A DNA stretch of 54,997 nucleotides from Halanaerobium salsuginis (GTDB taxonomy: Bacteria; Bacillota; Halanaerobiia; Halanaerobiales; Halanaerobiaceae): NCBI RefSeq assembly GCF_900114545.1, contig NZ_FOTI01000019.1, positions 1 through 54,997 of the forward strand, in the 5' to 3' direction. The notes under the pieces were generated by a model. That model did no database searches. It was given only the letters and a program-made list of their open reading frames with translations, and had not been told where the DNA came from. Position numbers and translations under genes: made by a program. Below, piece after piece: positions 11,153 to 48,268 of the stretch; the first letter of the stretch is position 1; each line of letters opens with the position of its first letter.

Positions 11153-13000
11153 GTGTTAAAAATTGTCACAATAATTAATGATTTGATGGAAAAAAATAGA
11201 ATAAAATCTTATTTAGCTAAAGCTAAAAATGAGCTACCTGAGTTTGAATTTGAATTAAGTAAAGAATTTGAAGATTATCGTCATGCGCTTAATTTTCTTT
11301 ATCAAGATGAGCCGATTGATATTTTAATTATTGAAGACTTTAATCGCGATAATTTTGAAGGACTGGACTTTATCATGTTGGCGGCTAAAGAGTTTCCGGA
11401 GAGCAGTTTGATTTTAACTTATTCTGCCAGTAAAGAGTTAGACTTAAGTTCTTATAAAATAACTAATTTAGCTGCTATTTTAAGCAAAAGTTCTGGTTAT
11501 AAAAATTTTAAAAATATAATTTTATTTACTCTGTTAAAACATCAAGCTAAAAATGCGAAAATTATGGCTGAACAACAAAAATTAACAGATTATAGAACAA
11601 TTATTGATCATACTCATGATGCAATCTTTTTGCTTGAAATAGACTGTGATAATAACTTTTATTATAAAAGAATTAATGAAACACATTATAATCTGACAGG
11701 ATTGAAGGCTGAAAATGTTATTGGTAAAACAACAGCAGAGATTTTTGGTGAGGCAGTGGCAGCTCAAATGGAAGAAAATTATCAGCGCTGTGTTGAGCAA
11801 AAAAGGAAGATAAATTATACAGAAGAGATTGAATTTCCCGGAGGAAAAAGAGTTTTTCAGACTGCTCTTTATCCAGTAATTAAACAGGGAGAAGTTAAAG
11901 AAATTGTAGGTGCTTCTAAAGATATAACAGAATTAGAGAGCTGGCAGGCAGAGCTTGAATACTTCAAGCAGCGGGATAAACTGACTGGTCTTTATAATGA
12001 AGAATATTTTAATAATTATTTACCAAAAGTTATTGAATTAAAAAACTTACCTCTAGTAGTGATTGTAATTGATATTGTTGGTTTTAATCTCTTAAATAAA
12101 TTATTTTCAACTACACAGGCAAATTCTATTTTAGAACAAACAGCAGCAATCGCTGCAGATTTGAGTCGCGAAAATGAGGTGGCTGCTCGTGTAAGCAGTA
12201 ATCAATTTGCTCTAGTTTTGAAAAAAAGATCAATTAGAGAGTTTAAAGTTATCATGGCTGAATTAAAGGCCAGGTTAGCTGCAGTTAAAATTGCCGGAAT
12301 TCCAATTGATTTTGCCGTAGTTGGAGAAGTTAAACTAGCTAAATTACCGGCTGCTAAGAAATTTTATGCTAATTTAATGGATAAACTAAAATTAGAAAAA
12401 TATAATTACCGACACACAGCTAATAGTAGATTTTGTCAGGGTGTACTGGAATCGATTGCGGCAAGTAAATATAAGTTAATTGGTCATGGGCCTAAACTAA
12501 TAGAAAGAGCAACTATGTTTGCTGCTCATTTTGAACTGAATCGTTCTGAAAAGGAAAAGTTTATTTTACTGGCTAAATATCATGATATTGGTAAATTAGG
12601 TCTGGACCAGAATATTCTTAAAAAAGGTGACTTATTAACAGCACTAGAATGGGAAGAATATCAGCATCACATTGAAAGATCTGCTAATTTTATTAGTCAC
12701 TTTTATGATTTAACAGATATTTTTCAACTTGTTTATCATCATCATGAATATTATGATGGTAGTGGTTATCCGGACTGTTTGCAGGGAATTAAAATTCCTT
12801 ATTTAAATCGTATTTTTTCTATTCTTGATTTTTATGATGCTGTTAGCAGTAATATATTTTACCCTTTTTTACAGGGACGTTATTTTTTTGCTGAATTAAA
12901 TAAACAACAGATAGCTGGCGAATTAAAGAAATATCAGGGAAGTATTTTTGATCCCCGACTTGTGGATAAATTTGTCGAAAAAGTATTGCCAGAAATTTAA
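11153..13000 (+). CDS. signalling protein: receiver-like, PAS, degenerate GGDEF, HD phosphohydrolase
   Basis: A 615-residue cytoplasmic protein. Residues 1-125 look like a receiver domain (DILIIEDFNRDNFEGLDFI). About 145-265 is a PAS domain (YRTIIDHTHDAIFLLEIDCD, ending GASKDITELE). About 270-410 is a GGDEF-like domain that starts RDKLTGLYNEEYF but has RVSSNQFALVL where GGDEF should be, so it is catalytically dead. About 430-600 is an HD domain with HDIGKLGL near 476 and HHEYYDGSGYP near 530, an HD-GYP-like arrangement. It could be a cyclic-di-GMP phosphodiesterase that uses the GGDEF relic for regulation. GTG start with AAAGGAG upstream; it follows the CDF gene by 18 bases. Substrate and signal are unknown. 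Confidence 0.75.
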   Translation: MLKIVTIINDLMEKNRIKSYLAKAKNELPEFEFELSKEFEDYRHALNFLYQDEPIDILIIEDFNRDNFEGLDFIMLAAKEFPESSLILTYSASKELDLSSYKITNLAAILSKSSGYKNFKNIILFTLLKHQAKNAKIMAEQQKLTDYRTIIDHTHDAIFLLEIDCDNNFYYKRINETHYNLTGLKAENVIGKTTAEIFGEAVAAQMEENYQRCVEQKRKINYTEEIEFPGGKRVFQTALYPVIKQGEVKEIVGASKDITELESWQAELEYFKQRDKLTGLYNEEYFNNYLPKVIELKNLPLVVIVIDIVGFNLLNKLFSTTQANSILEQTAAIAADLSRENEVAARVSSNQFALVLKKRSIREFKVIMAELKARLAAVKIAGIPIDFAVVGEVKLAKLPAAKKFYANLMDKLKLEKYNYRHTANSRFCQGVLESIAASKYKLIGHGPKLIERATMFAAHFELNRSEKEKFILLAKYHDIGKLGLDQNILKKGDLLTALEWEEYQHHIERSANFISHFYDLTDIFQLVYHHHEYYDGSGYPDCLQGIKIPYLNRIFSILDFYDAVSSNIFYPFLQGRYFFAELNKQQIAGELKKYQGSIFDPRLVDKFVEKVLPEI

Positions 13001-13031
13001 AAAATACCAAAATTAGGCTTATTATAGATAG

Positions 13032-13148
13032 TTATCCACAAGTTATTAACAAAACAGGTGTTTTATCCACAGTTGTTAACAATTAATTAACAATTAATGT
13101 GGATTAAAATATGGGTTTACCAACAGATTATCCACAATTTGTGGATAT
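13032..13148. promoter_or_regulatory. DnaA-box cluster in an intergenic region
   Basis: Three perfect TTATCCACA boxes lie at 13032-13040, 13063-13071 and 13128-13136. Two one-mismatch boxes occur in the opposite orientation at 13098-13106 (TGTGGATTA) and 13140-13148 (TGTGGATAT). The first two boxes are extended by similar GTTNTTAACAA tails, and TTAACAATTAA is repeated between. The last pair forms a palindrome TATCCACAA-T-TTGTGGATA. Five sites in 117 bases cannot be chance in such sequence. The region may bind DnaA as a titration or regulatory cluster, or be an origin-like site. dnaA/dnaN are not adjacent, so it is not called oriC. Confidence 0.7.
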
Positions 13149-13201
13149 TAAAAATGATTATTAATTAAGAAAATGTTTTGCTGATTTTTAAGGAGGAAAA
13201 A

Positions 13202-28808: not shown

Positions 28809-30755
28809 TTGCAGGTATTAAAAAAAGCATGTCAGAACTTTGCCGAATGCCAATCTTTTCTGGAGGAAATTAAAGATTCACCTTCACAATTAATTCAGGT
28901 TTATTCATCTAAGCCGGAGCAAATTAATAAAAAAATTATTAAGCTTTTTAGCCAAACTCTCCCCTTATCTACTCTGGTTGGTCTTACTGCCCAGGAAACA
29001 ATAAGTGGTCAAAGAGTTGCAGGTAATTTAATTACTATTCTGGTAATAAATTTTGCCAAAAGTAGTTTTGAATTACTAAAATCAAATGGGACAGCAGCCA
29101 GTGCAGCAGCAATTAACTCTCGAATTGAGTCAGATACTAAAGCTGTTTTGATTTTTTCTGCTCCAGATATAAATGGAGATAAGCTAGTTGACATTCTTAA
29201 TCAAAGCTCTTTTCACTTTATTGCAGCAGGTGGTGAAGCATCTCCAGCTGTTGATGATAAAACTTATCTTTTTGATAAAACAGGTATTTTGGACAATGGT
29301 CTTCTGGCTGTAATTTTAAATGGCAGTCAATTAAAAGCTAGCTGGTCTTATAATCTGGGTTGGGATAGTATTAGTCGTGAAATGGAAATAACGAGAGCAG
29401 AAGATAGAGTTGTTTATGAACTTGATGGTAGAAATATTTTTCAAGTTTATTCAGAATTTTTAGGTGAAGACATAAAAAATAAATTACCATCTATAGCTGC
29501 TTCAAAGTTTCCATTGGTTCTTAATGATGAGCTTCATAATGTTCGTTCGGCTAAACAGACTGTAGGAGAAGGCATTCTTTTTTCTGGTGAATTAAAAACT
29601 GGTGATTTAGTCCGGGTTGGTTATGGTAGTCTAAGTGAAATATTGGCTAATTCTCGACAATTACATCAGGGACTTAATTTTCATCCTGAGCTGGCCCTTA
29701 TCTATTCCTGTACTGAGCGCAGCCAATATTTAAAGTCATTTAATACTAGTTTAAATGAAGAACTGCAGGTAATACCAGGCCGCCGATTTGGTTTTTGTAC
29801 CGGTGGTGAATTTGGTCTGGTAAATAATAAATTTTATCATTTTAATATTAGTTCAACGGTTCTTTATTTGAGCGAAAAAAAAGAGGTAGTAAGTAAAAAA
29901 ATTAGATTTAATACTTCTGAACCAATTGTAAAAACAGAACATTTATTTCATTTATCTAAAAAAGTAGTTTCTGAACTAGAAATGATAAATGAAAAAATGA
30001 GAAAAGCTAATCTAGCAACTGGTAACAGTAAAGTTAAAGAGACAGCAGCTGAAATATTTAAATTAATTTTTGATGAAAAAAATTATACAGGTGGAATTGT
30101 AATTAAAGAGGCTGAAAACTTAACTAAAATTTATCTAGAAGATCAACTTGGAGCAGCAGCCTATGATTTGTTTAGAGATTTCTGGCAGCAAAAGCCTAAC
30201 CACACAACTAAAAAACCGGGTATTTTAAACTATCGAAACACATTTTTAATTCCTCTCCAAAAAGAGGTTGAAGCTTTAATAATCATTTTAAGTAATGAAG
30301 TTGATTTATATGATATTAAAAAGAATAGAGTTTTTATTGAACAAATTCCCAATTACTTAAAAAAAGCAGTTTTATACGAAAGTTTAGAGCGTAATTTGGC
30401 AAGTTTATCTACTCTGGAACTTACTTCAGATTTTCTTTATTCTACATTAGATATTGATCTATTATATGAAAGAATACTTGATATTATAGTTGCTACAATG
30501 GGAATGTCAGCTGCTACTATAATCAAAAAAGAAACTGAACAAATTAAACAGGTAAAAAGTATTAACGTTGAAGTTGATAGTGAATTATATTATTTTTTAA
30601 AAGGTCATTATGATAAAATAATAGCTTCCGAGCAGATTTTAATTGAAAATGAAATAGATTTTCTGGCTGAGATCGAGACCTTAATTGCTATCCCAATAAA
30701 TCTAAATGATTATCAAGCTGTCCTATATGCTATGCAGTCAAATATAAACAATTAA
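28809..30755 (+). CDS. FIST-domain sensor protein, N-terminal part of a frameshifted FIST/GAF/GGDEF gene
   Basis: A 648-residue reading frame starting at TTG after AGAAAGGGTG. Residues about 25-215 resemble the FIST N domain (LVGLTAQETISGQRVAGN; LVDILNQSSFHFIAAGGEAS) and about 220-370 FIST C (PLVLNDELHNVRSAKQTVGE, then SCTERSQYL). These are sensory domains thought to bind small ligands such as amino acids. The last ~130 residues resemble a GAF domain. The frame stops after LYAMQSNINN, yet the -1 frame continues without a gap as KYKQLINENQKKFIRTLANQ, the expected GAF end, into a GGDEF domain. Adding one base near 30740 would give a single 841-residue FIST-GAF-GGDEF protein. A one-base deletion or a sequencing error is the simplest explanation. 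Confidence 0.7.
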   Translation: MQVLKKACQNFAECQSFLEEIKDSPSQLIQVYSSKPEQINKKIIKLFSQTLPLSTLVGLTAQETISGQRVAGNLITILVINFAKSSFELLKSNGTAASAAAINSRIESDTKAVLIFSAPDINGDKLVDILNQSSFHFIAAGGEASPAVDDKTYLFDKTGILDNGLLAVILNGSQLKASWSYNLGWDSISREMEITRAEDRVVYELDGRNIFQVYSEFLGEDIKNKLPSIAASKFPLVLNDELHNVRSAKQTVGEGILFSGELKTGDLVRVGYGSLSEILANSRQLHQGLNFHPELALIYSCTERSQYLKSFNTSLNEELQVIPGRRFGFCTGGEFGLVNNKFYHFNISSTVLYLSEKKEVVSKKIRFNTSEPIVKTEHLFHLSKKVVSELEMINEKMRKANLATGNSKVKETAAEIFKLIFDEKNYTGGIVIKEAENLTKIYLEDQLGAAAYDLFRDFWQQKPNHTTKKPGILNYRNTFLIPLQKEVEALIIILSNEVDLYDIKKNRVFIEQIPNYLKKAVLYESLERNLASLSTLELTSDFLYSTLDIDLLYERILDIIVATMGMSAATIIKKETEQIKQVKSINVEVDSELYYFLKGHYDKIIASEQILIENEIDFLAEIETLIAIPINLNDYQAVLYAMQSNINN

Positions 30756-31333
30756 TTAATGAAAATCAGAAAAAATTTATTCGTACTCTAGCTAATCAGA
30801 TTAGAGTTAGCATTAGAAATGCACTAAATCATCATAAAGTTAAACGGCTTTCTGTAACTGATGGATTAACTAATCTTTATAATCATAGTTACTTCCATAA
30901 TCAATTAAAGCAAAAAGAAGGTGAAAAATATTCGATTGCAATTATGGATATTGATAACTTTAAAGCTTTTAATGATCAATATGGTCACCAGGCTGGTGAT
31001 GCTATTTTACGAGAGCTATCTTCTTTATTGAAAAATGAAATTAGACAGCAGGATCTTGTAGCCCGCTATGGTGGAGAAGAATTTGTTATTTATCTTAATG
31101 TTGTTGATCAGCGAATATTATCACAAATTCTAAATAGATTGATGAAGAAAATTCGGGAAATGAAAATAAAGTTTGAGGATGACATACTTCAAGTCACAGT
31201 TTCAATTGGTGTTTCCATTAATTCGCACGGTCAGTATGGATCAGAACAATTAATAAAAAATGCTGATACAGCACTTTATATAGCTAAAGGAGCAGGTCGT
31301 GATATGGTCAAATTTTATCGAGAAATTAGCTAA
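30740..31333 (+). pseudogene. GGDEF diguanylate-cyclase portion of the frameshifted FIST gene
   Basis: Frame -1 relative to the FIST reading frame is open from 30710 and encodes the end of a GAF domain, then LSVTDGLTNLYNHSYFHNQL, MDIDNFKAFNDQYGHQAGDA and an intact active-site motif RYGGEEFVIYL, ending SIGVS and NADTALYIAKGAGRD. Enzymatically it looks competent for cyclic-di-GMP synthesis. The first in-frame ATG (30944) lies inside the domain and has no RBS, so independent translation is unlikely. The GGDEF portion is therefore probably lost or made only if the upstream frame is restored. Confidence 0.65.
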
Positions 31334-47413: not shown

Positions 47414-48268
47414 ATGGATAATATTTTATATTTTGATATTAATTCTGGGATTAGTGGTGATATGACAATAGCAGCCCTGCTTGATTTGGGACTTGATCAG
47501 GCAAAGTTCTTAGCAGAACTTGATAAGCTGCAGTTAAGCGGCTATAAAATTGAAATAAAAAAAGTTCAAAAAAATGGAATCACAGCCAGTGACTTTAAGG
47601 TAATACTTGCCAACCCCCGGCATCCTGATCAGCTTGAACACCATGAACATGAACACCATGAACATGAACATCATGAACACGAACATCATGAACACGAACA
47701 TCATGAACACGAACATCATGAACACGAACATCATGAACACGAACATCGTAATTTTAATGATATTAAAGAATTAATTATGGCAAGTGAATTAAGTCAGCAG
47801 GTAAAAGAGCTCAGCCTTGAAATTTTTAGTTATGTGGCAGCGGCAGAAGCTAAAGTGCATAATAAAAGTATAGCAGAGGTTCATTTTCATGAGGTGGGAG
47901 CTGTTGACTCGATTATAGATATTGTAGGGACAGCTATTTTAATTGAGATGTTAGAACCAGACCATATTTATGCTTCACCTATTTCGCTTGGTACAGGTTT
48001 TATTAAGGCTGCACATGGCATTATTCCAGTTCCTGCACCAGCAACAATTGAAATTTTACAGAAAGTACCTGTCTATTCTACAGGTGTACATGGTGAGCTA
48101 GTAACTCCAACCGGAGCTGCTATTATAAAAACTCTGGCTGAGAAGTTTATTGATTTACCAGAATTAGAAATAGAAAAAATTGCTTATGGAGCAGGTAAAA
48201 GAGATTATGAAATCACAAATTTATTGAGAGTTTATCAGGCAAAAAAAAAATTAATGAGCAATTATTAG
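47414..48268 (+). CDS. larC: LarC, nickel insertion protein, N-terminal part (frame 0)
   Basis: A 284-codon frame encoding the first two-thirds of LarC, the CTP-dependent nickel inserter that completes the pincer cofactor. It opens DNILYFDINSGISGDMTIAA, contains a His/Glu repeat, and continues EVHFHEVGAVDSIIDIVGTA, SPISLGTGFIKAAHGIIPVP and TGVHGELVTPTGAAI. The frame ends shortly after a run of ten A (48241-48250). A -1 slip there joins it to the C-terminal part, giving 426 residues, the usual LarC size. LarC of Lactobacillus plantarum is known to be made by ribosomal frameshifting, so this is probably programmed. Confidence 0.9.
   Translation: MDNILYFDINSGISGDMTIAALLDLGLDQAKFLAELDKLQLSGYKIEIKKVQKNGITASDFKVILANPRHPDQLEHHEHEHHEHEHHEHEHHEHEHHEHEHHEHEHHEHEHRNFNDIKELIMASELSQQVKELSLEIFSYVAAAEAKVHNKSIAEVHFHEVGAVDSIIDIVGTAILIEMLEPDHIYASPISLGTGFIKAAHGIIPVPAPATIEILQKVPVYSTGVHGELVTPTGAAIIKTLAEKFIDLPELEIEKIAYGAGKRDYEITNLLRVYQAKKKLMSNY
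47636..47748 (+). repeat. 15-bp tandem repeat encoding a His/Glu-rich metal tail
   Basis: Seven tandem units of 15 bases encode HHEHE repeats inside larC. Units 1-2 and later units differ at silent sites (CAC/CAT, GAACAT/GAACAC). The tract is likely a nickel-binding reservoir and may vary in copy number between strains. Confidence 0.95.
48241..48250 (+). other. probable -1 ribosomal frameshift site in larC
   Basis: Ten consecutive A residues follow GGC. Frame 0 reads GCA AAA AAA AAA TTA ATG and meets TAG at 48266; the -1 frame reads AAA AAA AAA ATT AAT GAG and continues the LarC protein. A AAA AAA heptamers are efficient slippery sites. No strong downstream stimulatory hairpin is apparent. 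Confidence 0.7.

Follow-up and report, generated by a model that had tools for sequence, protein, structure and literature searches.

A conserved single-copy cluster of phased DnaA boxes away from the replication origin in Halanaerobiaceae

Introduction

DnaA is the protein that starts chromosome copying, and to our knowledge sites that control it from outside the origin are well known only in Escherichia coli, Bacillus subtilis and Streptomyces. In a 54,997-nucleotide stretch of the Halanaerobium salsuginis genome (hereafter the window), an initial annotation had pointed out five DnaA-box-like sites within 117 bp (13032-13148), between an HD-domain gene and a DUF445 gene. This raises the question of what such an assembly does at a place away from dnaA: it had been read as a cluster that titrates or regulates DnaA, as a DnaA-controlled promoter of the DUF445 gene, or as a relocated or secondary origin. 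A literature search found no paper on oriC or DnaA boxes in Halanaerobiales.

Results

DnaA boxes are concentrated far beyond chance

Scanning the window recovered exactly the boxes that had been annotated, namely three perfect plus-strand copies of TTATCCACA and two inverted copies with one mismatch, TAATCCACA and ATATCCACA (Table 1). The neighbours were likewise borne out, with a gene for a PAS-GGDEF-HD protein upstream and one for a DUF445 protein downstream. A fourth perfect box, overlooked earlier, lies within the 3' end of the HD-domain gene, and the same bases are seen again in several relatives that have this gene.

The density of DnaA boxes at 13032-13148 is far above chance. Taken as a whole, the window has no more boxes than chance predicts (17 counted versus 16.4 expected), and it is therefore the clustering that constitutes the signal. 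In 6 Mb of simulated sequence built from the window's dinucleotide statistics, counting boxes with up to one mismatch, at most two boxes fell in any 117-bp stretch, compared with five in the real cluster; two perfect boxes never shared such a stretch, where the real cluster has three. Genome-wide, perfect boxes number 30 in 2.99 Mb, and groups larger than a pair are confined to two places, the cluster and, on contig C4, the surroundings of dnaA.

Table 1. Features of the DnaA-box cluster and its surroundings (window coordinates).
Feature	Position	Strand	Remarks
Whole conserved element (DnaA-box cluster)	13028..13167	+	140 bases; profile match in own genome E 1.3e-33
Strong DnaA box B1, TTATCCACA	13032..13040	+	invariant in 13 aligned genomes
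Degenerate DnaA box TTATTAACA, 2 bp 3' of B1	13043..13051	+	mean 2.23 mismatches, 13 genomes
Inverted-repeat spacer AAACAGGTGTT between boxes	13052..13062	.	94% conserved
Strong DnaA box B2, TTATCCACA	13063..13071	+	invariant in alignment
GTTRTTAACAATTAATYAACAA segment	13073..13092	+	degenerate box at 13084, mean 2.54 mismatches; weaker box-like repeat at 13073
DnaA box B3, TAATCCACA	13098..13106	-	96% conserved
Degenerate DnaA box TTACCAACA, 2 bp 5' of B4	13117..13125	+	mean 1.92 mismatches
Strong DnaA box B4, TTATCCACA	13128..13136	+	perfect in most genomes; off consensus in G007, G011, G012, G013
DnaA box B5, ATATCCACA	13140..13148	-	tail to tail with B4; 98% conserved
AT-rich tail TAAAAATGATTA after B5	13149..13160	.	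91% conserved
Further perfect DnaA box in HD-domain gene end	12961..12969	-	box scan and genome-wide count

Strong and degenerate boxes lie in helical phase

Each position was scored against the DnaA box over 13 genomes, and on the plus strand only six positions stay within the cut-off of a mean of at most 3.2 mismatches (13032, 13043, 13063, 13084, 13117 and 13128), the box-like repeat at 13073 falling outside it. Their offsets of 0, 11, 31, 52, 85 and 96 are all near whole helical turns, which places the six on one face of the helix. A gap of exactly 2 bp separates a strong from a degenerate box in two cases (13032/13043 and 13117/13128); in relatives the degenerate partner reads TTACCCACA, TTACTCACA and the like in the first case and TTATCAACA or TTATTCACA in the second. 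The repeated GTTNTTAACAA extensions noted at the outset are real and conserved; the ones at 13043 and 13084, if no others, are best read as degenerate DnaA boxes that keep phase with the strong boxes. The spacer at 13107-13116 is variable in sequence (0.55 conservation) but constant in length within the genus, as helical phasing would require, while the strong boxes are near-invariant.

DnaA of E. coli prefers pairs of boxes 2 or 3 bp apart in vivo, spacing of the 2-bp type predicts its binding, and at purH it is enough for DnaA that a strong box is paired with a weaker one (PMC11317965). In oriC, low-affinity sites form the scaffold from one strong nucleation site to the next (PMC4285127). 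By analogy, the degenerate in-phase boxes with their 2-bp gaps resemble cooperative DnaA arrays. A structured RNA was also considered for the element and gave no Rfam match.

The AAACAGGTGTT spacer resembles the AAAACnnnnGTTTT spacers that part two boxes in the oriC of several other Halanaerobiales. In its own right, AAAACnnnnGTTTT is conserved between two DnaA boxes 22 bp apart in the oriC of six genomes (G012, G017, G019, G020, G026 and G035), where it could be a candidate site for some origin-binding protein.

One conserved copy of the element in each Halanaerobiaceae genome

A search with a sequence profile of the aligned element returned one strong match per genome in all 14 Halanaerobiaceae (E 1e-23 to 1e-35), the relatives compared including Halanaerobium polyolivorans. 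In 24 further genomes of the order this search found nothing comparable, its matches there being at E 3e-7 or weaker; several of these weak matches in other families share a contig with dnaA and are oriC regions, and the one in G026 is a separate two-box cluster. In an alignment of 13 copies, about 143 bp long, column identity averages 83%, and the flanks beyond it align poorly. A 40-bp box pair with the same spacer is present in every genome of the same genus; two further genera of the family have the pair too, with a spacer that has diverged more. The element is thus a conserved single-copy unit of Halanaerobiaceae that maintains both its boxes and their spacing, as a DnaA-box cluster should. 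The initial annotation had counted a lack of conservation of the boxes against its reading; the boxes are kept in 14 of 14 genomes.

This conservation refutes a chance accumulation of DnaA-box-like sequence. Such a build-up might be suspected in an AT-rich genome in which one-mismatch boxes occur at the chance rate over the window, but with a simulated maximum of two boxes per 117 bp and an element retained throughout the family its probability is close to nil.

The replication origin lies elsewhere

The single full-length dnaA is found on contig C4, not on the contig of the cluster, in agreement with the earlier remark that the two are not adjacent. DnaA boxes lie on both sides of dnaA, and the dnaA-dnaN interval carries TTATCCACA followed by a CCCC cluster and six DnaA-trios (TACTACTATTACTACTAG), a succession also present in G008. 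Locating dnaA and dnaN, as had been proposed, thus identified the true oriC: it is bipartite, flanks dnaA on contig C4 and has, between dnaA and dnaN, the unwinding arrangement standard for Firmicutes. This oriC (oriC1 upstream of dnaA, oriC2 between dnaA and dnaN) shares with the cluster the TTATCCACA boxes in similar number, direct pairs two to three turns apart and a tail-to-tail pair. Unlike oriC, the cluster has no dnaA or dnaN neighbour, no GC cluster with DnaA-trios and no switch in GC skew.

The shared box type, together with several DnaA boxes and AT-rich stretches in one place, is what could recommend the cluster as a secondary, backup or relocated replication origin. However, a complete bipartite origin already stands beside dnaA, and no conserved DnaA-trio run or GC cluster plus trio was found at the cluster. 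GC skew also speaks against an origin: in the window it has a positive sign before and after the cluster, broken only by minus-strand genes, and in the single-contig genome G008, over the 280 kb computed, it is negative up to oriC, turns positive there and remains so across the cluster at 218.6 kb. With dnaA location, GC skew and trio motifs all opposed to it, the origin reading was rejected as highly improbable.

The distance between cluster and oriC is known from two single-contig genomes, amounting to 153 kb in G007 (chromosome 2.61 Mb) and 219 kb in G008 (chromosome 2.31 Mb). The cluster therefore lies away from the dnaA-linked origin, within about 6-10% of chromosome length from it, and in these two genomes occupies opposite arms, each time pointing away from oriC.

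The flanking genes change while the element persists

The 5' neighbour is the PAS-GGDEF-HD gene in most genomes and a cation-efflux gene in G008, G012 and G013. On the 3' side, corA followed by DUF445 is found in most genomes and DUF445 directly in H. salsuginis itself, G007, G011 and G013. Since flanking genes swap while the element persists, we argue that the element has a role of its own. Nevertheless, in all genomes with a readable flank it precedes the DUF445 gene or corA-DUF445, and this constant place makes transcriptional control a possibility.

The main rival to an off-origin DnaA site is accordingly a promoter: DnaA bound at the element might repress or activate corA-DUF445 or DUF445 and so make their expression follow the replication cycle. 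That DnaA can act as a transcription factor is established (PMC8203912, PMC4447404), and the next co-directional gene is invariably DUF445 or corA then DUF445. In G007 and G011 the ribosome-binding site nearly abuts the cluster, so that any separate promoter would have to sit inside it. Yet promoter-like matches are at the chance level, with none on the plus strand inside or after the cluster, and a strong sigma-70 promoter within the element was dismissed on the same grounds. Furthermore, the first gene varies by genome, the distance from cluster to gene is not constant, and number and phasing of the boxes exceed what a simple operator requires. Other families retain DUF445 without the cluster, which was not found in the stretches examined around their DUF445 relatives. 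Of the DUF445 promoter put forward initially, the constant place before the DUF445 unit stands; the promoter itself does not rise above chance, and in most relatives the next gene is corA. Taken together, we regard control of these genes by DnaA as unlikely, if well short of implausible.

Discussion

The element is probably a chromosomal DnaA-binding cluster apart from the origin that acts as a DnaA reservoir or negative regulator and is functionally similar to datA. Among the readings offered at the outset, that of a DnaA-box cluster outside oriC is the one carried by the data, the element being conserved, single-copy, phased and on a contig separate from dnaA and oriC. From this architecture we infer DnaA binding, cooperativity and an effect on initiation timing. 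Nucleation of DnaA would take place on the strong boxes, from which ATP-DnaA could grow into a cooperative oligomer over the degenerate boxes that lie in phase with them, in part at 2-bp gaps. Because of its proximity to oriC the element would be copied early after initiation, and its early doubling would draw active DnaA from oriC, where the lowered level would discourage early or repeated initiation. A single cluster may, however, offer too few sites for titration where DnaA is abundant.

IHF is a heterodimer encoded by two genes, and a search for HU/IHF-family genes in the H. salsuginis genome turned up a single HU-family member, hence no IHF pair. It is therefore unlikely that the element works strictly as datA does, and titration or a DnaA-oligomer sink would be the more economical reading. 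The element shares with E. coli datA that it is a non-coding, origin-proximal DnaA-box cluster, conserved in place and sequence and expected to lower the DnaA available to oriC; datA differs in promoting ATP hydrolysis with IHF, whereas here titration would still be conceivable, and apart from the boxes no sequence homology would be expected. The relative distance of datA from oriC is also conserved in E. coli (PMC4585315).

The same gene inventory bears on a DARS-like site, at which ADP-DnaA would release its nucleotide and be recharged with ATP, promoting initiation. ADP release at DARS1 and DARS2 is triggered by the geometry of a three-box core. E. coli DARS sites are likewise short non-coding DnaA-box clusters outside oriC (PMC4585315), and the element contains the inverted pair B4/B5 in addition to strong boxes. 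Against this, datA and DARS loci are absent from B. subtilis (PMC13220808), and the solitary HU-family gene leaves no IHF pair, so that we consider a DARS-like function improbable.

Returning to the reservoir, the nearest counterparts are the DnaA-box clusters of B. subtilis (Okumura et al. 2012, as described in PMC5295017 and PMC13220808), which likewise lie outside oriC. There, six clusters are jointly needed for a strong effect and their joint deletion causes early initiation, compared to one dominant cluster here. Both organisms have a bipartite origin flanking dnaA, a Firmicute-type genome, YabA (13 of 14 genomes of the family) and no IHF pair; the sequence of the element and its location beside DUF445 are particular to Halanaerobiaceae. 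A cluster close to oriC in Streptomyces coelicolor represses untimely initiation, as cited in PMC4585315; genome and location differ.

The cluster is real and conserved, and it represents a known type of element in which phased architecture and single-copy conservation are unusually clear. As one conserved site, kept despite gene gain and loss on both sides, it offers a clean one-locus test of cluster titration, a question that the redundancy of six clusters obscures in B. subtilis. More tentatively, and with less probability than the general reservoir reading, we hypothesise a lineage-specific single-copy locus that forms an oriC-like phased DnaA oligomer without unwinding and serves as the main off-origin initiation switch, its datA-like function having evolved independently and without IHF.

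Additional observations

A different conserved small DnaA-box cluster, with two perfect boxes and TTATCCACT just upstream of a ThiF-like gene, was seen in another genus of the order (L098:2135-2187, at about 64.1 kb of G020:C7, and L099:2694-2746, at about 7.7 kb of G026:C101); in G020 it lies about 56 kb from dnaA. Other Halanaerobiales may thus have off-origin clusters of their own. In G000, an inverted pair of perfect DnaA boxes occurs in three identically spaced copies (C36:251-295, C69:251-295 and C59:3938-3982), two of them at identical coordinates of two contigs, and is probably repeated sequence.

Elsewhere in the window, a probable sensor gene at 28809-31333 (FIST-like by eye) is interrupted by a stop near 30755 and takes up its GGDEF part in another frame, open from about 30710 to 31333, so that the gene looks frame-shifted or split. 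At 47636-47747, a 15-base tandem repeat of 7.5 copies encodes a long His/Glu run, possibly a nickel-binding stretch, in a LarC-like protein whose gene adjoins LarB-like and NikR-like genes (family assignments by eye).
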